From Kordiimonas marina (GTDB lineage Bacteria; Pseudomonadota; Alphaproteobacteria; Sphingomonadales; Kordiimonadaceae): DNA of 64,000 nt. The notes below the pieces were generated by a model. The model was not told the origin of the DNA and did not search any database. It saw nothing but the letters and a program-made list of their open reading frames with translations. The translations under genes and the position numbers were made by a program. Below are positions 34,722 through 53,577 of this stretch, piece by piece; the first letter of the stretch is position 1; each line of letters starts with the position of its first letter. Location: the NCBI RefSeq assembly GCF_023006325.1, contig NZ_JAINDF010000001.1, forward strand, positions 54,863 through 118,862, read 5' to 3'.

Positions 34722-34748
34722 TAGATACTTCTATCCTTGGGGGAAAAT

Positions 34749-37700
34749 ATGCGCCGCTTCGCCACCTTATTGCTTATTGCACTTGTCTGCCTTGCCACTC
34801 CGCTCCTGCCGTCTGCCAAGACCATGGCGGGTGACATAACATCACCCACGGTTCTTGAAGACAGGTCCGCAACCGCCGCCCGGTTGCTCGAGGCAGCGAA
34901 GCAGCGAGTCCATGAGCTTGAAACGCTGGAGGCCGCTAAATCGGTTGATGGCCTCAATCTTTCCGATGCTCTTAAACAGGGGCTCCCCCCGACGCCTCCT
35001 GAAGGCAGCATCAAAGATTTCAAAAAACGCTATAGCGCAGAACTCCAGCTCGCCCAGCATGCCAACCAGAGCTACCCCTGGCGCAACGCGGCTGAGGCCT
35101 GGCTGAAGGTCGGGCGCCTTGACGATGCCTACGGCGCCGCATGGCACCTGCTGCATGTAGCGGACAACCCGGGTGCCCGCGCCGGTGCCCTCGACACTTT
35201 CGTGAAAATCCTTTTGGCTGACCACAAACCCGAAGAGGCGCTGACGACACTTCGGGAAGCGCAGGCGGTCTATCCGATCGACAGCCGCCAGATATGGCTT
35301 AATTCTGTAGAAGACCGCTTCACCCTGCGCATTACCGACCAGACCGTCGACACCGAAGGCAAGTCCCCGCGCGCCTGTCTCGTTTTCTCCCATCCCTTAC
35401 GGAAGACGCTGCCGATCCCGGTGGAGGACTATGTCCGCGTAACCGGCGGCCGTGATGTTTCCATACAGGCCGAGCATGACCGTATTTGCCTCATGGGGCT
35501 AACCTACGGCGACAAGATGGAGGTTACCGTTCTGGCCGGACTGCCCGGCGAGGAAGGGACCAAGCTCTATAAGGATACCACACGCACCATCGTCATTTCG
35601 GACCGGCCGGCACGCCTTGTTTTCGGCAATGGCACCTATATCCTGCCCAAGGTGGGTGACGAGACTGTTCCCCTCAAAAGCGTCAATGTGGACACGGCGA
35701 GCCTGGCCCTGTTTCGCGTGCCGGACCGCGGCCTCGTACCCTGGATGAATTCAGGGCTTGAAGGCAAGAACCTCAATGGTTGGGCGCAGGAGAATTTGGG
35801 CAACAATATTGGCGAGAAGGTCTGGAAAGGCCATGTCGATATTGACACGGTCAAGAACGAGGACGTCACCACCCTCGTGCCGATCAGGGACATGCTGAAG
35901 ACGAAAAAGCCGGGCATCTATGCCCTGGTCGCAACACCCGGAGACGGAAAACAACAGCAGGAGTGGGAGCCACAACAAACCCAGTGGGTCGTGATCTCGG
36001 ACCTGGGCATCATGACACTTCAGGGAGCGGATGGTCTGCATGTCTTCGTCAATTCGTTGGAAACGGCGAAGCCGCTTAAGAACGTGACCATCAAGGTCAT
36101 CGCCAGGAACAACGACATTCTCGCCGACGTCCAGACCGACAGAGACGGTCAGGCCACGATCGCCGCTGAACAGTTTCGGGGTACAGGCGGTAATCTCCCG
36201 ATGGCTCTGACAGCCAGCACCTCGAAAGGTGACTATAACTTCATCAAGCTTCAGGGCGCGGCCCTGGATATGAGCGACCGAGGCACCGAGGGCCGTAAGA
36301 CAAGCGGGCCGCTTGATGCTTTCCTCTATACCGAACGCGGTATCTACCGCCCCGGCGAGACTGTTTTCCTGTCTGGCCTGTTGCGGGATGCACAGGCGCG
36401 CGCCGTTGGCAAGCTGCCTTTGACCCTCGTCATTACCCGCCCGGACGGCGTCGAAGCCGTCAAAAAGCGCATCACCGGCGACAGCTTGGGCGCCTATGCG
36501 TTTGACTATGGCTTGTCGCCCGCCGCCCGCACAGGCCTGTGGCGGGTTAGCCTGCTTGCGGATAACGAGGCCCAAAGCGTTGGTGAAACACATTTCCAGG
36601 TAGACGATTTTGTCCCCGAACGGCTCAGCGCGAAACTCGATACCCTAAAGAACCAGTTAAGCGCTGGCGTGTCCCTGGAAGTGCATGTGCAGGCGGACTT
36701 CCTGTATGGCGCACCAGGCGCTGACCTTACAGGAACACTCTCCACCACGCTTGCAGCTGACCCGGCGCCCTTCAAGGAATGGAAGCGCTATCATTTCGGG
36801 CTGGTACAGGACGAATTTTCCGGCGAAAAGCTGAACAGCCTCCCCCTCAAGACAGACGCCACCGGGCTGGCGCGGGTCGCGCTCGTAGCAAACAAGCTGC
36901 CAGACACAACCCTCCCCCTTAGGGCCAAGCTGACCGCCGAGATCCAGGATGTTGGCGGGCGTCCCGTTCAGGATGCCGTTTGGCTACCGGTCAAGCACGC
37001 CCCGGTGATGCTGGGCGTGCGCGCTGAACAAGATGGCAGCTTTGAAGAGAACACGCCCGCCGCCCTTTCGGTTGTCGCCGTGGACGGTAACGGCAAGCCG
37101 CTTACAGGCAAAAACCTGACCGCCGTGTGGGTCAAGGAACACTATAGCTATACCTGGTACCAAAGCCGCAACCGGTGGCAATATCGCCCCAGCTTCTATG
37201 ATGAAACCATGGGCGAAGAACAGGTCCGCAGTGGTATGGATGGCACGGTCCAGCTTTCGCGGACACTGCCGTGGGGACGATACCGCCTCGATGTGCGCAC
37301 CCCGGACGGCAAGGCGGCGGCAAGTGCGCGCTTTACCGTCGGCTGGTGGGCCGCATCCCAAAGCCCGGACGTACCGGATGGGCTGGAACTCTCGCTGAAG
37401 TCAACGGCACTGAAAAGCGGTGACCGGGTGCACGGCCATGTGAAGGCGCCCTTTGAAGGGATCGCGCTGATTACGGTGGCAAATGACCGGGTGCTCGCCC
37501 ACAAAACCATCCATCTGAGTAAAGAGGGCGGCGACTTTGACTTCAAGGTGAAGAAAGACTGGGGGCCGTCCGCCTATATCCTGGCGACTGCCCTGCGCCC
37601 TGATGCCGGGGCCATATCGCGCCTGCCCATACGTGCAACCGGCCTGACCTGGTTCTCGATCGACCGCAAAGCCCGGTCAAAGGCGATTGTCTTCGATGTT

Positions 37701-40022
37701 CCGAAAACCGCCCTGCCCGGCCAGAAGATCACCATTCCCATCAGACTTGAGGGGGAAAGACCACCCGGCGAAATGAAAGTAACAGTGACAGCGGTTGATG
37801 AGGGCATCCTCAATATCACGCGGTTCAAGACCCCGAGCGCCGACGCATTCTATTTCGGCAAACGATGGTTCGCCTTCGACATCCGGGATATCTATGGCCG
37901 CCTCATCCGGTCAGAGGCAGGCAAGCGCGGCAAAATCCGTACTGGCGGCGGCGGCCTTGAAGAAGTGGTCGTCACCGGGAGCCGAGTGGACAGGAATAGC
38001 CCCACCAGCAATCTCTTCAACCCAATGACACGCACAACAAAAACCGTGGCCCTGATCAGCCGGAACATCAGCCTGGATGACAAGGGTGAAGGCAGTGTCA
38101 CGCTGACCCTACCTGACTTTTCCGGCAAACTGCGCCTGATGGCAGTCGCCACTTCGGTGGGGGCTGTGGGGACGGGCAAAGCCGACCTGACCGTGCGGAC
38201 GCCCGTGGTCGCGGACCTGATCACGCCGCGCTTCCTCGCGCCGGGGGATCAGGCGCAAGCCACCCTCAGTGTCCAGAATCTGTCGGGCCAGGATGGGACC
38301 TTCACGGTACAGCTCGAAACCCTGTCGCAGGCTATCGGGCTTCAGGCACCCCAGGAGACCGTCACCCTCAAGAATGGCGAACGTCGTGATCTGACCATAC
38401 CGCTTCAGGGTATCACCGTCGGCACGGCAGGCATTGACCTGGCCGTCACCGGCGGCACCATGACGCCGGTACACCGTCATTATGATATCTCCGTCCGCGC
38501 GGCATGGCCCTATGTGACACAGCGCAACAGGTTCTCCCTGACACCCGGCAAAACGGGGACTGCAGACGGTATCGCCTTGAGCAGCTTCTATAAGGGCACT
38601 GTCAGCCAGGACCTGGTCGTGACCTCGCGCCCCAACCTGGAAGCCGGGCGTCTGTTCCAGGACCTGGACGACTATCCCTACCGCTGTAGTGAACAGACAG
38701 TTTCGCGGGCGATGCCGAACCTGTTCTTTAAAGAGCTGAACAGCCTTTACAAAATGCCCTCAGACAATAGCCACGCAGCAAATACCGTGGAAAGGGCCAT
38801 TGCCCGCCTGCTGGACCGTCAGCGGTCGGACGGTAGTTTTGGTCTGTGGAACAGTTTCGGCTCACGATATGACTGGCTGGATGTCTATGTCACAGATTTC
38901 CTTCTACGCGCCCGGGACAAAGGCTATTTCGTGTCGGACTCTGCCATCAGCCTCGCCCTTTCCCGGCTGAAACGCATGGTGGCGAACCGTGGCCAGGGAT
39001 TCCCGGAAGCCCAGGCGTATGCCCACTATGTCCTCGCGCGTTATGGTGACGTCTCAGCAAGCGAAGTCCGCTATTTCGCTGACCAGTTCGCCCCCAAACT
39101 GAGGTCCCCGCTGGCCATCGCGCAAATAGCGGGTGCCCTGAAAATCATGGGGGAAGCCGACCTTTCAGCCCGCCTTATGGTCAAGGCGGTGCATACGAGC
39201 CGCAAGGACGCAACCCTATGGGGCGACTATGGCTCCCGCCTGCGTGACCTGGCCGCGATCACGACCATCCTTAAGGAGACCGGGGTAGACGCCAGTTTAA
39301 TGGCCGACCTGGCCGACGGGCTGGAAGCGAGTGTCGCCAAGAACCGCTGGCTGAACACCCAGGAAATGGCTTGGCTTTCCCGCGCCGCAGCCGCCTTCGC
39401 CGGGAACAATGCCAGCGAGATGACGTTCGCGATTAACGGCACGGAAACAAAGGCCAAGCATGGCTTCTGGCAAAAGATATTTGCCAAGGGCACAAACCTG
39501 GCGACAACCTCCATCATCAACACGAGCGACACGTCCCTGAGGGTCGTTCATTCCGTGCGGGGCATCCCGAAGGCTGCCCCTGATGAAGTCTCCCACGGGT
39601 TTCGCTATGCCCGGTCATATTATGACCTCCAGGGCCACCCCATCAGCCCAGACAGCCTCCCCCGGAACGGCCGGTTTGTCGTCCTCTTGTGGGGGCAGGC
39701 CGATGCGGAAGCCATTGAGGACCCGCTGCTTGTAGACCTGCTGCCTGCGGGGCTCGAAATCGACAGCACGGACACGAGTGATCTTTCCTTCCTCGGCGAC
39801 CTGACCTCGGTCGAGTTCTCCGACGCGCGGGACGACCGGTTTGTCGCCGCGCTCAAGATTGTGCCTTTTACGCCCGACAAATACCGGTCGTTCCGCGTAG
39901 CCTACATCGTTCGGGCGATCACACCCGGAACCTACGTGATGCCAGGGCCTTTCGTGGAGGATATGTACAAGCCCCGGTTCCGCTATCAGGGCAAGGCATC
40001 CCAACTGGTGGTTAAGGAGTGA
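34749..40022 (+). CDS. Bacterial alpha-2-macroglobulin with thioester motif (YfhM/ECAM-like)
   Basis: Envelope protein of 1757 residues that should trap proteases through a reactive thioester. ATG 34749 follows GGGGGAAAAT. The N-terminal signal peptide (about 1-25) has a Cys in LVCLAT that does not fit a lipobox, unlike the lipoprotein ECAM. MG-type beta domains fill the first 1000 residues; the MG segment 'LYTERGIYRPGETVFLSGLL' is typical. The bait-region position (about 1050-1085) carries an unusual LEEVVVTGSR (1070-1079). The thioester CSEQ is intact at 1313-1316 (YPYRCSEQ). An alpha-helical thioester domain and a C-terminal receptor-like domain follow. It overlaps pbpC by one base. Confidence 0.92.
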   Translation: MRRFATLLLIALVCLATPLLPSAKTMAGDITSPTVLEDRSATAARLLEAAKQRVHELETLEAAKSVDGLNLSDALKQGLPPTPPEGSIKDFKKRYSAELQLAQHANQSYPWRNAAEAWLKVGRLDDAYGAAWHLLHVADNPGARAGALDTFVKILLADHKPEEALTTLREAQAVYPIDSRQIWLNSVEDRFTLRITDQTVDTEGKSPRACLVFSHPLRKTLPIPVEDYVRVTGGRDVSIQAEHDRICLMGLTYGDKMEVTVLAGLPGEEGTKLYKDTTRTIVISDRPARLVFGNGTYILPKVGDETVPLKSVNVDTASLALFRVPDRGLVPWMNSGLEGKNLNGWAQENLGNNIGEKVWKGHVDIDTVKNEDVTTLVPIRDMLKTKKPGIYALVATPGDGKQQQEWEPQQTQWVVISDLGIMTLQGADGLHVFVNSLETAKPLKNVTIKVIARNNDILADVQTDRDGQATIAAEQFRGTGGNLPMALTASTSKGDYNFIKLQGAALDMSDRGTEGRKTSGPLDAFLYTERGIYRPGETVFLSGLLRDAQARAVGKLPLTLVITRPDGVEAVKKRITGDSLGAYAFDYGLSPAARTGLWRVSLLADNEAQSVGETHFQVDDFVPERLSAKLDTLKNQLSAGVSLEVHVQADFLYGAPGADLTGTLSTTLAADPAPFKEWKRYHFGLVQDEFSGEKLNSLPLKTDATGLARVALVANKLPDTTLPLRAKLTAEIQDVGGRPVQDAVWLPVKHAPVMLGVRAEQDGSFEENTPAALSVVAVDGNGKPLTGKNLTAVWVKEHYSYTWYQSRNRWQYRPSFYDETMGEEQVRSGMDGTVQLSRTLPWGRYRLDVRTPDGKAAASARFTVGWWAASQSPDVPDGLELSLKSTALKSGDRVHGHVKAPFEGIALITVANDRVLAHKTIHLSKEGGDFDFKVKKDWGPSAYILATALRPDAGAISRLPIRATGLTWFSIDRKARSKAIVFDVPKTALPGQKITIPIRLEGERPPGEMKVTVTAVDEGILNITRFKTPSADAFYFGKRWFAFDIRDIYGRLIRSEAGKRGKIRTGGGGLEEVVVTGSRVDRNSPTSNLFNPMTRTTKTVALISRNISLDDKGEGSVTLTLPDFSGKLRLMAVATSVGAVGTGKADLTVRTPVVADLITPRFLAPGDQAQATLSVQNLSGQDGTFTVQLETLSQAIGLQAPQETVTLKNGERRDLTIPLQGITVGTAGIDLAVTGGTMTPVHRHYDISVRAAWPYVTQRNRFSLTPGKTGTADGIALSSFYKGTVSQDLVVTSRPNLEAGRLFQDLDDYPYRCSEQTVSRAMPNLFFKELNSLYKMPSDNSHAANTVERAIARLLDRQRSDGSFGLWNSFGSRYDWLDVYVTDFLLRARDKGYFVSDSAISLALSRLKRMVANRGQGFPEAQAYAHYVLARYGDVSASEVRYFADQFAPKLRSPLAIAQIAGALKIMGEADLSARLMVKAVHTSRKDATLWGDYGSRLRDLAAITTILKETGVDASLMADLADGLEASVAKNRWLNTQEMAWLSRAAAAFAGNNASEMTFAINGTETKAKHGFWQKIFAKGTNLATTSIINTSDTSLRVVHSVRGIPKAAPDEVSHGFRYARSYYDLQGHPISPDSLPRNGRFVVLLWGQADAEAIEDPLLVDLLPAGLEIDSTDTSDLSFLGDLTSVEFSDARDDRFVAALKIVPFTPDKYRSFRVAYIVRAITPGTYVMPGPFVEDMYKPRFRYQGKASQLVVKE

Positions 40023-42118
40023 TGCTGCCTTCCTTGCCATATTGGCGAAAAATGCCCAAGAGGCTGAGACATGCAGTGATTTTGTTTGCTGCAGGCCTCG
40101 GCCTCCTGGTGCCCGCTTTCTTCCTGTTCGATGCTGCTTTTCCGCCGAATCTTGCGCGCTACCGAACCGTCTCCCATGAAGTGGTTGCCGCCGATGGCAG
40201 TCTCCTACGGCTTTTTCCGGTCGAGGATGGCCGCCTGCGCCTTGCCGCATCGCAGAGCCAGGTAGACCCGCTGTTTCTCAAGATGCTGATCGCCTATGAA
40301 GACAAGCGTTTCTACCGGCATATCGGTGTCGATGGGCTGGCTGTCGTCCGCGCAATGTGGCAGGCCGTGGCCTCTGGCGAGATCGTCTCCGGGGCCTCCA
40401 CCCTGACGATGCAGGTTGCCCGCCTGCTGGAGCCACGCCCCCGAACCCTGGCGTCGAAGCTGGTTGAGATGTTCCGCGCACTGCAACTGGAGCATCACTA
40501 TAGCAAACGGAAAATCCTGGAAATCTACCTGACGCTCGCCCCTTATGGCGGCAATCTGGAGGGCATTCGGGCGGCGAGCCTCGCTTATTTCGGCCATGGG
40601 GCGCAACACCTGACACCTGACGAAGCCGCCCTTCTTGTGGTGCTGCCGCAGTCTCCCGCCAGCTTACGCCCCGACAAACACCCCGCAAATGCCAGAGCCG
40701 CCAGGAACAAGGTCCTTGCGCGCGTATGGCAAGAGGCCGGGTTGTCCGCTCATCTGTTGACGCTGGCCGAGGCAGCTCCCGTCCCCCATAGCAAACAGAC
40801 GCCAGCGCAGGTCGCCCCCCAATTGGCTGCACGTGTGGAAGACGCACATCCTTCACCCTTGATCCGCACCCCTATTGACGCTGCTCTCCAGCAACAGCTT
40901 GAAGACCTCGCGGCGAGCTGGGCCAGGCGGGTCCATCCCAATGCCAGCGTCGCCATCCTGGTGGTGGAGAATAAAAGCCGTTCCGTGCTGGGCTATGTCG
41001 GATCAGCAGAGTTTGCCAATACCGCCCGTTCGGGCTTCGTCGATATGGTGACGGCCATCCGGTCTCCAGGGTCGACGTTAAAGCCCTTCATCTACGGCAT
41101 GGCTTTCGACCGGGGGATCGTGCGCCCGCAAACCCGCATCATAGACGCCCCCAGGCGGTTCGGCACCTATGCCCCCAGCAATTTCATGCACGCCTTCTAT
41201 GGCGAAGTGACCATATCGAAGGCGCTGCGCTGGTCCCTGAATGTGCCAGCAGTGGCGGTCCTCGACCGCCTGGGGCCTGTGCAGTTTACCGAGGCGCTCC
41301 GCCATGCCGGGGCCAACCTGCAACTGCCCGACGACAAACCCGCAGGCCTTGCCGTCGCCCTGGGCGGCGTCGGCACGTCGCTCGAAAATCTCGTCTCGCT
41401 CTATGCCGCCCTGGCTGACGATGGAAAGCTCCGCCCCCTGGTGCTGACAGAAGGCCAGAAAAGTGTTCCCGTCTCCCACCCCCTGCTCAGTACAGCGTCG
41501 CGCAATGCCCTGCGGCACATCCTGTCAGGGATCGGGGCGCCGGGGGACCGGCTGCCACGGAAGTATCAGCTCAATCCCCGCCACATCGCCTTCAAGACTG
41601 GCACCAGCTATGGCTTCAGGGATGCGTGGGCCATCGGGTATGATGGCGGTTACACCATAGGCGTTTGGGTCGGGCGACCGGATGGCACGCCACTGCCCGG
41701 CCACTTCGGCAGCAACACGGCCGCGCCCATCCTTTTCGAGGCGTTCGACCATCTGCCCGTGACCTCATCCCCGCGGGTATCGAGCCCGCTTCTGAGCGCT
41801 GAGAATTTACCGCCGGGGCTGCGCTACTTCGATGGACCCAAGATCTCCACTGTCACCGGCAAAAGGATGCTACCCCTCACCATCGCCTTTCCCTTGGCCG
41901 ACAGTATCGTCGCCTTGGACACCGGCAAAACGCCGCTAACCCTTTCGGCCGAAGGCGGCGAACTCCCCCTGCAATGGTTTGTCGATGGCATGCCTCTGGC
42001 ATCAAGCCGCTGGTCGCACACTGCGACGCTCCTGCTCAAAAACCAGGGTTTTTACCGGGTGAGCGTTGTGGATCGAGCAGGCGACCGGCGATCGGTGAAT
42101 TTTGCGGCAAAAAGATAG
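40022..42118 (+). CDS. pbpC: Penicillin-binding protein 1C
   Basis: Bifunctional peptidoglycan glycosyltransferase/transpeptidase-like protein of 698 residues with one N-terminal membrane anchor (about 17-38). The GT51 domain has catalytic Glu93 in EDKRFYRH and GASTLTMQVARLL. The penicillin-binding domain has SxxK at Ser351-Lys354 (PGSTLKPF), SxN at 405-407 (WSLNVP) and KTGTS from Lys525. A C-terminal BiPBP_C-like beta domain follows. The ATG shares a base with the macroglobulin stop (TGATG); ATG 40052 is an alternative. pbpC next to alpha-2-macroglobulin is a known bacterial pairing, thought to link wall repair with protease defence. Confidence 0.94.
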   Translation: MLPSLPYWRKMPKRLRHAVILFAAGLGLLVPAFFLFDAAFPPNLARYRTVSHEVVAADGSLLRLFPVEDGRLRLAASQSQVDPLFLKMLIAYEDKRFYRHIGVDGLAVVRAMWQAVASGEIVSGASTLTMQVARLLEPRPRTLASKLVEMFRALQLEHHYSKRKILEIYLTLAPYGGNLEGIRAASLAYFGHGAQHLTPDEAALLVVLPQSPASLRPDKHPANARAARNKVLARVWQEAGLSAHLLTLAEAAPVPHSKQTPAQVAPQLAARVEDAHPSPLIRTPIDAALQQQLEDLAASWARRVHPNASVAILVVENKSRSVLGYVGSAEFANTARSGFVDMVTAIRSPGSTLKPFIYGMAFDRGIVRPQTRIIDAPRRFGTYAPSNFMHAFYGEVTISKALRWSLNVPAVAVLDRLGPVQFTEALRHAGANLQLPDDKPAGLAVALGGVGTSLENLVSLYAALADDGKLRPLVLTEGQKSVPVSHPLLSTASRNALRHILSGIGAPGDRLPRKYQLNPRHIAFKTGTSYGFRDAWAIGYDGGYTIGVWVGRPDGTPLPGHFGSNTAAPILFEAFDHLPVTSSPRVSSPLLSAENLPPGLRYFDGPKISTVTGKRMLPLTIAFPLADSIVALDTGKTPLTLSAEGGELPLQWFVDGMPLASSRWSHTATLLLKNQGFYRVSVVDRAGDRRSVNFAAKR

Positions 42119-51164: not shown

Positions 51165-51219
51165 TAATTGTGCCGTCATTATTTTATCAAATATGTTTGA
51201 TATGGGAGGCACTGCCATC

Positions 51220-53577
51220 ATGGCTATCGGGACACTTACAAAGTTAGCATTGGTATCAACCACTGCGCTCAGCGGCATCGGCTCTACGGCCCTGCTCGCC
51301 GCCGACAAGGACACCACCACAAAACTGGACGAGATCGTCGTCACGGCAACCCGCCGCAGCGAGCGCATCGAGGACATCCCCTATAATATCTCCGCCGTCT
51401 CCGGCACGCGGATCGACGATTTCAAGATGCTGGATTCAGCCGAGCTGTTGCGCTCGGTCTCCGGGGTCGCTGTGGTCGACCGTGGCCCGCGAAATGCCGG
51501 TACGGTCAACAGCATCCACATCCGCGGCCTCAATGTAGACAGCAACACCCTGGGGGACTATGCGACCTCGTCCGCACCGACGGTTTCAACCTACATTAAT
51601 GATACGCCGATCTTCGCGAACCTGATGATCAAGGATCTGGAGCGCGTGGAAGTCCTGCGCGGCCCGCAGGGCACGCTTTACGGTTCCGGCGCGCTCGGCG
51701 GTACGGTACGTTACATCACCCGCAAGCCGGACTTTGACGGTTTCTCCGGTCAGGTTTCCGGCTCGCTCAGCAGCGTCAAGGGCTCAGGTAGCATCGGCTG
51801 GTCGAGCGATATCGTGCTCAACGTACCCTTCAGTGACACCCTGGCCTTCCGCTTCGCCGGCACCCGCCAGGATTACCCTGGCCTGACCGACTATGTGAAT
51901 GTCTATAATCTTGATGCAAACGGCATCCCGATTGCTCCGAAGGGTATTCTGGACCCGACCGCAAGCTACAGGTCCGTCAAGGATGCCGACTATTACAAAG
52001 CCTGGTTCGGCCGCGCCAGCCTGCGCTGGCGCCCGAGCGATACGTTCGAGGTAACCGCGACCTATACCCGCCAGTCCGACAAATCGGGCGGCCGCCGCGC
52101 CCAAACGGTCGGCAAGGACGGCTACGGCAATCCTTACGGCAAATATGAGAACGGCTCCGTCCAGCTCGAGCCCGCGAACAGCGACACCGAGCTTGGGGCA
52201 CTTGAAGCGACGCTCGACCTCGGCTTCGCCACGCTGACCTCTTCGTCCTCGCTTTACAACACGCACGGCAGCAGCATCAGCGAGAACACCGGCTATTATG
52301 CCCAGAACGGCTGGCTGGGTTACTATTACAACTATCCGAGGCCCATGGCCTCCGCCGACCGCGCCTACAAGGACAAGGCCTTCGTCGAGGAAGTGCGGCT
52401 CGTGTCCTCGGGTGATGGCCCGGTCAGCTATGTCTTCGGCCTCTATTATCAGGACCAGGACCGCCAGGCGACCCAGCATAGCTATCTGCGCGGCGCCAAG
52501 GACTATATTGACGCGCTGTTCGGCTCTGACGTTCCGTGGGTATCGGGCGACCAGGACTTCCACTATGTTCTGGACGAAAATTTCAAGCAGAAGGCCGCCT
52601 ATGGCGAGCTGACCTATAAGCTATCCGACAAAATCGATGTCACGGTTGGCGCGCGCTATTTCAAGAACGAAAGCTCCTCCACCACCTTTATGGCGTTGCC
52701 TTTCTACACGGACCTGTTCCCGGAACTGAACTCGACCTTCAGCAACTCGGAAAGCAAGATCCTGTTCAAGGGTAACCTGACCTATCACCTGTCGGACGAC
52801 AGCCTGGCCTATGCCACCTGGTCGCAAGGCTACCGCCGCGGCGGCCAGAACGGTGTGCCCACCACAGGCTATTTTGCCGAATCCCCTGCCTGGCTGGTCT
52901 ACAAATCCGACCGGGTGGACAACTATGAGATTGGCTTCAAGGGCTCGGCCCACGACATCCGCTATAATGTCAGCCTGTTCTATGTCGACTGGTCGGACCC
53001 GCAGCTTAACACTGCCACGCCGGTCTGGGGCTTCTTCGCCGTGCAGAACGGCAGCAGCGCCGCCACCAAGGGCATCGAGGTCGAGATCGAGGGCAACCTG
53101 ACGCCAAGCATCCACTACAGCATGGGCTACGCCTATGCGGATGCCAAGCTGACCAGCGATTTCACCTCGCCGGTCGGGTCACTGATCGCGTCGGACGGCG
53201 CCGTGCTGCCGGGTGCACCGAAGCATATGTTCAACGTCGCGCTCGACCACACCTATGCCATCAGCGACAAGGCCCAGCTGGTCAGCCGCATCGACGGCTA
53301 CTTCCAGTCCTCGGCCCGGAACGCAATCGGCACGTCGGTCCGCTATGATGCCACCCTGCCCGCCTACAGCCTGTGGAACGGCTCGGTCGCGCTGGTGTTC
53401 GACAAGTTCGACGTCTCCCTCTGGGTGAAAAACATCTTCAACGCGGAAGGCGTCAGTGCCATCTTCAAGGAAGAACTCATGGGAACGGCACCGGATCAGG
53501 GCTACTACGGCAACGGTTCCAAGCAGCAGATCGCCCTGCCGCGTACCTTCGGGCTTTCCGCGACCTACCGGTTCTAG
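51220..53577 (+). CDS. TonB-dependent receptor
   Basis: Outer-membrane active transporter of 785 residues. ATG 51220 has GGAGG upstream; ATG 51193 is possible. A signal peptide (about 1-28) precedes the TonB box DEIVVTATRR (37-46). The plug has RIEDIPYNISAVSG, IHIRGLN and LERVEVLRGPQGTLYGSGALGGTVRYIT. A 22-strand barrel follows, ending with the aromatic residue in LSATYRF. The plug resembles the class often annotated for complex organic substrates in sphingomonads and caulobacters, not clear siderophore receptors. The substrate is unknown. Confidence 0.95.
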   Translation: MAIGTLTKLALVSTTALSGIGSTALLAADKDTTTKLDEIVVTATRRSERIEDIPYNISAVSGTRIDDFKMLDSAELLRSVSGVAVVDRGPRNAGTVNSIHIRGLNVDSNTLGDYATSSAPTVSTYINDTPIFANLMIKDLERVEVLRGPQGTLYGSGALGGTVRYITRKPDFDGFSGQVSGSLSSVKGSGSIGWSSDIVLNVPFSDTLAFRFAGTRQDYPGLTDYVNVYNLDANGIPIAPKGILDPTASYRSVKDADYYKAWFGRASLRWRPSDTFEVTATYTRQSDKSGGRRAQTVGKDGYGNPYGKYENGSVQLEPANSDTELGALEATLDLGFATLTSSSSLYNTHGSSISENTGYYAQNGWLGYYYNYPRPMASADRAYKDKAFVEEVRLVSSGDGPVSYVFGLYYQDQDRQATQHSYLRGAKDYIDALFGSDVPWVSGDQDFHYVLDENFKQKAAYGELTYKLSDKIDVTVGARYFKNESSSTTFMALPFYTDLFPELNSTFSNSESKILFKGNLTYHLSDDSLAYATWSQGYRRGGQNGVPTTGYFAESPAWLVYKSDRVDNYEIGFKGSAHDIRYNVSLFYVDWSDPQLNTATPVWGFFAVQNGSSAATKGIEVEIEGNLTPSIHYSMGYAYADAKLTSDFTSPVGSLIASDGAVLPGAPKHMFNVALDHTYAISDKAQLVSRIDGYFQSSARNAIGTSVRYDATLPAYSLWNGSVALVFDKFDVSLWVKNIFNAEGVSAIFKEELMGTAPDQGYYGNGSKQQIALPRTFGLSATYRF

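Follow-up and report, generated by a model that had tools for sequence, protein, structure and literature searches.

The window analysed here, a stretch of 64,000 nucleotides from Kordiimonas marina, carries a gene for a predicted type I bacterial alpha-2-macroglobulin (A2M), followed on the same strand by a gene for a penicillin-binding protein. The features on which the analysis draws are as follows.

34749 to 40022, + strand: predicted type I bacterial A2M gene (YfhM/ECAM-like), from Pfam and comparison with the PDB
37950 to 38048, + strand: predicted bait loop (approximately residues 1072-1104 of the product), between the conserved segments ..RTGG and ..KTVAL
37956 to 37985, + strand: TonB-box-like motif LEEVVVTGSR inside the bait, from the translation
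38685 to 38696, + strand: thioester motif CSEQ (C1317-Q1320), from alignment
40019 to 42118, + strand: pbpC-type penicillin-binding protein gene, overlapping the A2M reading frame by 4 bases
51325 to 51363, + strand: TonB box LDEIVVTATRRSE of a TonB-dependent receptor gene (51193-53577), outside the A2M unit and given for comparison only

The A2M product (P0001) is about 1760 residues long; its reading frame has an ATG at 34749 and an alternative in-frame start, the mechanical start of the frame, at a TTG at 34737. Nine Pfam families, each above its own curated cut-off, are found in the order A2M_bMG2, bMG3, MG2, bMG5, bMG6, A2M_BRD, A2M, TED and bMG10. Neither a Plug nor a beta-barrel family was matched in P0001 at E ≤ 0.001, which sets it apart from TonB-dependent receptors. 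The top PDB match, both by sequence and by fold, is ECAM (5a42); among solved structures, E. coli YfhM/ECAM and the Salmonella A2M (SaA2M) are its closest relatives. The cysteine, glutamate and glutamine of the CxEQ thioester are invariant across a five-sequence alignment that includes P0001. Published work describes pbpC as the operon partner of type I bacterial A2Ms (PMC5764988); a pbpC homologue is present in 17 of 19 A2M loci that were chosen by hand for this test. The genome of the window has a single match to PF00207. P0001 thus shares with ECAM and SaA2M the domain order, the CxEQ thioester, a bait that follows the BRD domain and the pbpC partner, and the first, second and last of these identify it, by prediction, as a type I bacterial A2M to which the known protease-trapping mechanism would apply.

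A Sec signal peptide can be recognised by eye in P0001, and a regular-expression search found no lipobox in it. This ordinary signal peptide distinguishes P0001 from ECAM with its lipoprotein anchor, and is shared by those alphaproteobacterial relatives that do not have the motif. We considered and discarded the idea that a TonB box replaces the lipid anchor of ECAM: no lipobox was seen in alphaproteobacterial A2Ms, whether or not they have the box (by regular expression and by eye, in 29 rows that include several startless fragments).

The initial annotation had reported the sequence LEEVVVTGSR at residues 1070-1079, preceded by a glycine run and followed by VDRNSP, and had assigned it to the bait region. 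Translation confirms the coordinates and both flanks, the residue numbers being 1070-1079 when counted from the ATG at 34749 and 1074-1083 from the TTG at 34737. The assignment to the bait is borne out by alignment and by a structure model. The motif sits between the Pfam matches to A2M_BRD (883-1026) and A2M (1112-1193) and aligns opposite the stretch GGDGDELKRGGKPP of E. coli ECAM. Cleaved ECAM is described as having no density for 20 bait residues, Arg923-Leu942 in the numbering of that structure (PMC4498604). An AlphaFold model of residues 620-1761, made from 52 aligned sequences (mean pLDDT 84.7), has its longest stretch of pLDDT below 50 at residues 1050-1090, which contains the motif (1074-1083); a short helix is drawn there at a confidence too low to carry meaning. 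Both lines of evidence place LEEVVVTGSR within the predicted bait loop.

By its sequence, the motif is a receptor-type TonB box, as had been proposed from its letters alone and as the own genome now supports. The pattern [DE][VIM][VIM]VTG has nine matches there: this A2M, the N-termini of seven TonB-dependent receptors and one 234-residue frame that is not receptor-like in appearance. Read backwards as a control, the same pattern has no match in this genome. The looser [DE][VIM][VIM]VT[GA] has 27 matches (three for the backwards control), 21 of them just upstream of Plug matches, one in the A2M and five elsewhere, namely three frames that do not resemble genes and, by eye, a methyltransferase and a monooxygenase. 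Plug matches number 35 in this genome, and 35, 57, 62, 63 and 27 in the five genomes examined. A receptor-box matrix of nine columns was derived from 31 distinct receptor boxes of the window's genus; its source was a regular expression applied near Plug domains (36 of 37 receptor loci matched, four receptors being present twice), and it therefore favours canonical boxes. On this matrix the bait of the window scores 28.1, equal to the highest score of any receptor box, and none of 20000 shuffles of the bait reaches its score. EEVVVTGSR thus equals the top-scoring boxes of TonB-dependent receptors and, like those boxes, would stand in a flexible stretch, here predicted by low pLDDT, of a protein whose signal peptide is recognised by eye. 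Receptor boxes are found at the N-terminus, ahead of a plug and barrel, whereas this one occupies a loop within a protein that is presumably periplasmic and soluble.

The same kind of bait recurs in other macroglobulins, as the initial annotation had suggested should be looked for, both in close homologues and more widely. Our searches matched 96 of 385 genomes of the class and 139 of 398 of the phylum (the best 30 loci of each were fetched, together with 100 chosen stretches) and 114 of 295 genomes of a gammaproteobacterial order, of which the best 30 loci were read; in a scan of named contigs the best 80 of 185 relatives were retained, and a plasmid search returned 279 records with relatives, all below 60% identity. 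Baits were read in 242 loci (L133 and L134 gave none) and in 29 of the 30 gammaproteobacterial loci, many of these being the same gene under two identifiers. Eight of 200 distinct baits score between 8.1 and 28.1 on the receptor-box matrix, and the next best scores -1.8. Besides that of the window, they are LEEVMVTGMRR in K. gwangyangensis DSM 19435 (L003/L026, genome G011; the two A2Ms are identical to each other and 49-50% identical to P0001), MEEMMVSGMRK (L004/L021, likewise from the genus Kordiimonas, 47% identical), LEQVVVTARKR (L130, from the same order as the window's host, 38%), LAEIMVTAGKR (L023, an alphaproteobacterial MAG, 40%), IEEVVMTSGLK (L093/L131, 38-39%), SEKMMVTGSRMQR (L282/L291, from a different class, the gammaproteobacteria, 25%) and SEEEMVTGRRIKR (L314, from the same gammaproteobacterial genus as L282/L291, in a broken gene). 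Since the motif recurs in homologues and lies in the bait, what had been named as grounds for abandoning the initial reading, absence from all homologues and a place outside the bait, was not what we found. The A2M itself is patchy: of the 19 genomes in the window's genus, it was found in three (that of the window is one of them, and all three have the motif), and in the order it was found in 9 of 396, against 96 of 385 in the class. Weak second bMG3 matches, below the family cut-off, occur in frames of 800-830 residues at L010 (G011:C5:25640-25759) and L011 (G001:C51:229-384).

All eight box baits have an acidic start, a T or S, a G, A or S and a following R or K, and seven have the core V. 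Six of the eight have methionine in that core, a residue that the 31 receptor boxes never show at the positions concerned. The two nearest homologues share with the window 7/9 and 5/9 positions of the motif, and 5/19 and 4/19 positions of the remaining bait. The distance from the GG to the start of the box varies from 2 to 10 residues, so that the box does not form a constant strand of the A2M fold. Length also sets these baits apart: the seven distinct box baits of the main reading measure 29-34 residues, against a median of 17 for the 192 others, only six of which reach 29 residues. The bait of P0001 is accordingly about twice as long as the median (32 against 17), and in this, as in its motif, P0001 departs from type I bacterial A2Ms generally. 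Most A2M baits that we read are short and unrelated to the motif, and the long baits of the relatives L005, L006, L048 and L132 do not contain it. Methionine-rich baits occur with or without the box (L004, L005, L048, L132 and L282), and an oxidation-sensing role is conceivable for them.

A chance origin of the match is very unlikely. Shuffling each bait leads to an expectation of 0.10 baits at a score of 8 or more; at 15 or more, four baits are observed and none arose in 400 rounds of shuffling. The test set comprised the 199 distinct baits of the main reading and L314, the other baits of the gammaproteobacterial reading being left out. Outside loops the matrix alone is not specific, because 53 of 271 A2Ms have a non-bait window that scores 8 or more, and when baits are taken as 50-residue windows the best score without a box is 4.3, not -1.8. 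The best twelve non-bait windows read DPIVVTASL or DPVVVTASL, a single strand in 25 loci. This structural strand after the bait (for example in L054, L086 and L213) scores like a TonB box and is nearly always rhizobial where the host is named.

A tree was built by a quick method from 30 A2M rows chosen by hand, leaving out the columns of the bait. On it, the box is present in seven of the 12 rows of a single alphaproteobacterial clade (support 94, not starred), two of these seven rows being identical, and once more in a distant gammaproteobacterial subfamily. The nearest relatives of the latter outside its genus, L292 and L293, are without the insert. To account for this distribution, the tree requires a minimum of five changes. 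Within the alphaproteobacterial clade, one ancestral gain with several losses and repeated gains fit equally and cannot be told apart; the gammaproteobacterial occurrence is, as the tree places it, separate from that clade. In that gammaproteobacterial genus, A2M genes may be undergoing loss: at L382 (genome G1336) the A2M gene is broken into short frames, as is, by eye, the adjoining pbpC-like gene.

The boxes in baits also follow, in part, those of the receptors of their hosts. The bait of the gammaproteobacterial host G1010 reads EKMMVTGSRMQR and resembles the receptor box EKIQVTGSRFQR of the same genome, which stands with EKIQVTGSRIAR, EKVIVTGTRMMN and EKISVTGSRIKR among the nine boxes recognised in 15 receptors of 27 Plug matches. 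It scores 24.7 with the matrix of its own genome's receptors, which rests on the boxes recognised in 9 of 15 receptors, and 5.0-12.1 with the four others. In this genome [DE][VIM][VIM]VT[GA] has three matches against six for its backwards control, four of the nine recognised boxes starting with EK; in G451 it has 31 against five. The own genome's receptors are the best fit in three of five cases, one of them marginal: the bait of L130 fits them best (26.4), that of the window does so only marginally (29.0 against 28.7), and those of G011 and G001 fit other genomes better. The bait of L314, from G1336, a congener of G1010, scores 24.2 and 23.3 with alphaproteobacterial matrices against 18.6 with that of G1010. 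In G451 (L381:8991-18708) a presumed pbpC comes after the A2M, and a TonB-dependent receptor gene on the same strand begins 136 bases further on; another receptor lies about 4 kb upstream, and the boxes of both neighbours differ from the bait.

According to published work, the trap springs when its bait is cut (PMC4498604, PMC5764988), and the thioester is thereby exposed (PMC4498604). In receptors, TonB boxes are described as flexible and as binding TonB by beta-strand addition, and they also occur in group B colicins (PMC11658791); a parallel comes from the Tol system, in which TolA is described as binding the N-terminus of periplasmic TolB likewise (PMC12905483). We tentatively favour the reading that the bait loop holds a TonB-box-type linear motif that is kept by selection and that would act as a TonB-docking peptide within the trigger loop. 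We regard this as plausible rather than probable. In its favour, the box and the baits have the same conserved letters (acidic, hydrophobic, V, T/S, G/A/S), and the place of the motif in the loop shifts from one bait to another, as that of a docking peptide can. TonB would then read the bait of the macroglobulin, linking the protease trigger physically to the Ton system, and docking could keep the A2M close to TonB and to the receptors that foreign proteins use for entry. In another version, a protease might cut after the basic residues found behind all eight boxes, and the spent trap would then be bound through the box-bearing tail thus exposed; in either case, for the trapping itself we rely on the mechanism known for type I A2Ms. 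A fuller version seems doubtful to us: TonB would bind the bait, the proton-driven motor would position, arm or clear this immune-like protease inhibitor, and such a coupling would have arisen two or more times by way of a host-like box. One point against docking is that a soluble box would be a competitor of the receptors for TonB.

TonB boxes are flexible receptor N-termini exposed to the periplasm, and the main rival to docking, close behind it though itself somewhat unlikely, is that the bait is a self-mimicking decoy: it would copy these N-termini so that a protease clipping TonB boxes springs the trap, no binding to TonB being needed. This draws directly on the springing of the trap by cutting of the bait described above. 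The likeness to receptor N-termini continues past the box core into basic residues (SR, SRMQR, ARKR), which would suit trypsin-like cutting, and the baits of G1010 and G451 best fit the receptors of their own genomes. Against this, general proteases would not require that the V-T/S-G/A core be kept, and the majority of A2M baits are short and unrelated. We know of no protease with a preference for TonB boxes. The match to local receptors is expected under docking and decoy alike, and two observations count against both: the methionine seen in six of the eight box cores, and the long baits without a box. The initial annotation had offered both, a decoy imitating outer-membrane receptors or a real TonB-binding segment, and its interpretation is partly supported overall.

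That long, hydrophobic, methionine-rich baits were selected for some other cutting, their receptor look being incidental and their recurrence due to shared descent, appears improbable. Long methionine-rich baits without a box do occur in the same clade, and the bait outside the motif is poorly conserved. Ordinary drift of this kind is, however, already hard to reconcile with eight baits at a score for which shuffling predicts 0.10 in 200, and it has further to contend with the separate occurrence in a gammaproteobacterial subfamily and with the finding that, in homologues 47-50% identical to the A2M of the window, the motif has changed less than the remainder of the bait.

Less probable still is that the 5' DNA of a receptor gene was copied into the bait by recombination, leaving a box without a function of its own: peptide identity with receptor starts extends over 9-10 residues, but the receptor genes near the A2M of G451 have different boxes, and the DNA of the bait agrees with that of the best of the receptor boxes examined at 21 of 27 bases, which is no closer than synonymous chance (random mean 21.5; 77% of 2000 reach 21), so that a recent copy is unsupported, though an old one is conceivable. 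Local duplication from an adjoining receptor was likewise rejected, as the neighbours in G451 carry other boxes and the receptor 11 kb away in the window reads LDEIVVTATRR.

Group B colicins and TolB, with its TolA-binding N-terminus, are described as proteins other than receptors in which such a peptide serves to bind TonB or TolA (PMC11658791, PMC12905483), and P0001 would resemble them in this. Theirs are N-terminal and serve import or Pal release, while that of P0001 lies in a protease-triggered loop of a resident protein. Type I A2Ms are known, and what would be new here is the TonB-box-like motif in the bait; we found no published account of a TonB box with a macroglobulin bait, in a search that was thin on subscription papers. 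The bait region of eukaryotic A2Ms is likewise a loop whose cleavage is the trigger. It is known as a broad-spectrum bait, and we know of no energy-transducer motif in it.

The motif bears on the periplasmic targets of bacterial macroglobulins and on the determinants of their bait sequences. TonB-box-like baits in separate lineages would tie the protease trap either to the Ton system or to the protection of receptors, with the concrete prediction of TonB binding or of proteolysis specific for TonB boxes. They would also extend the list of possible competitors for TonB beyond receptors and bacteriocins.
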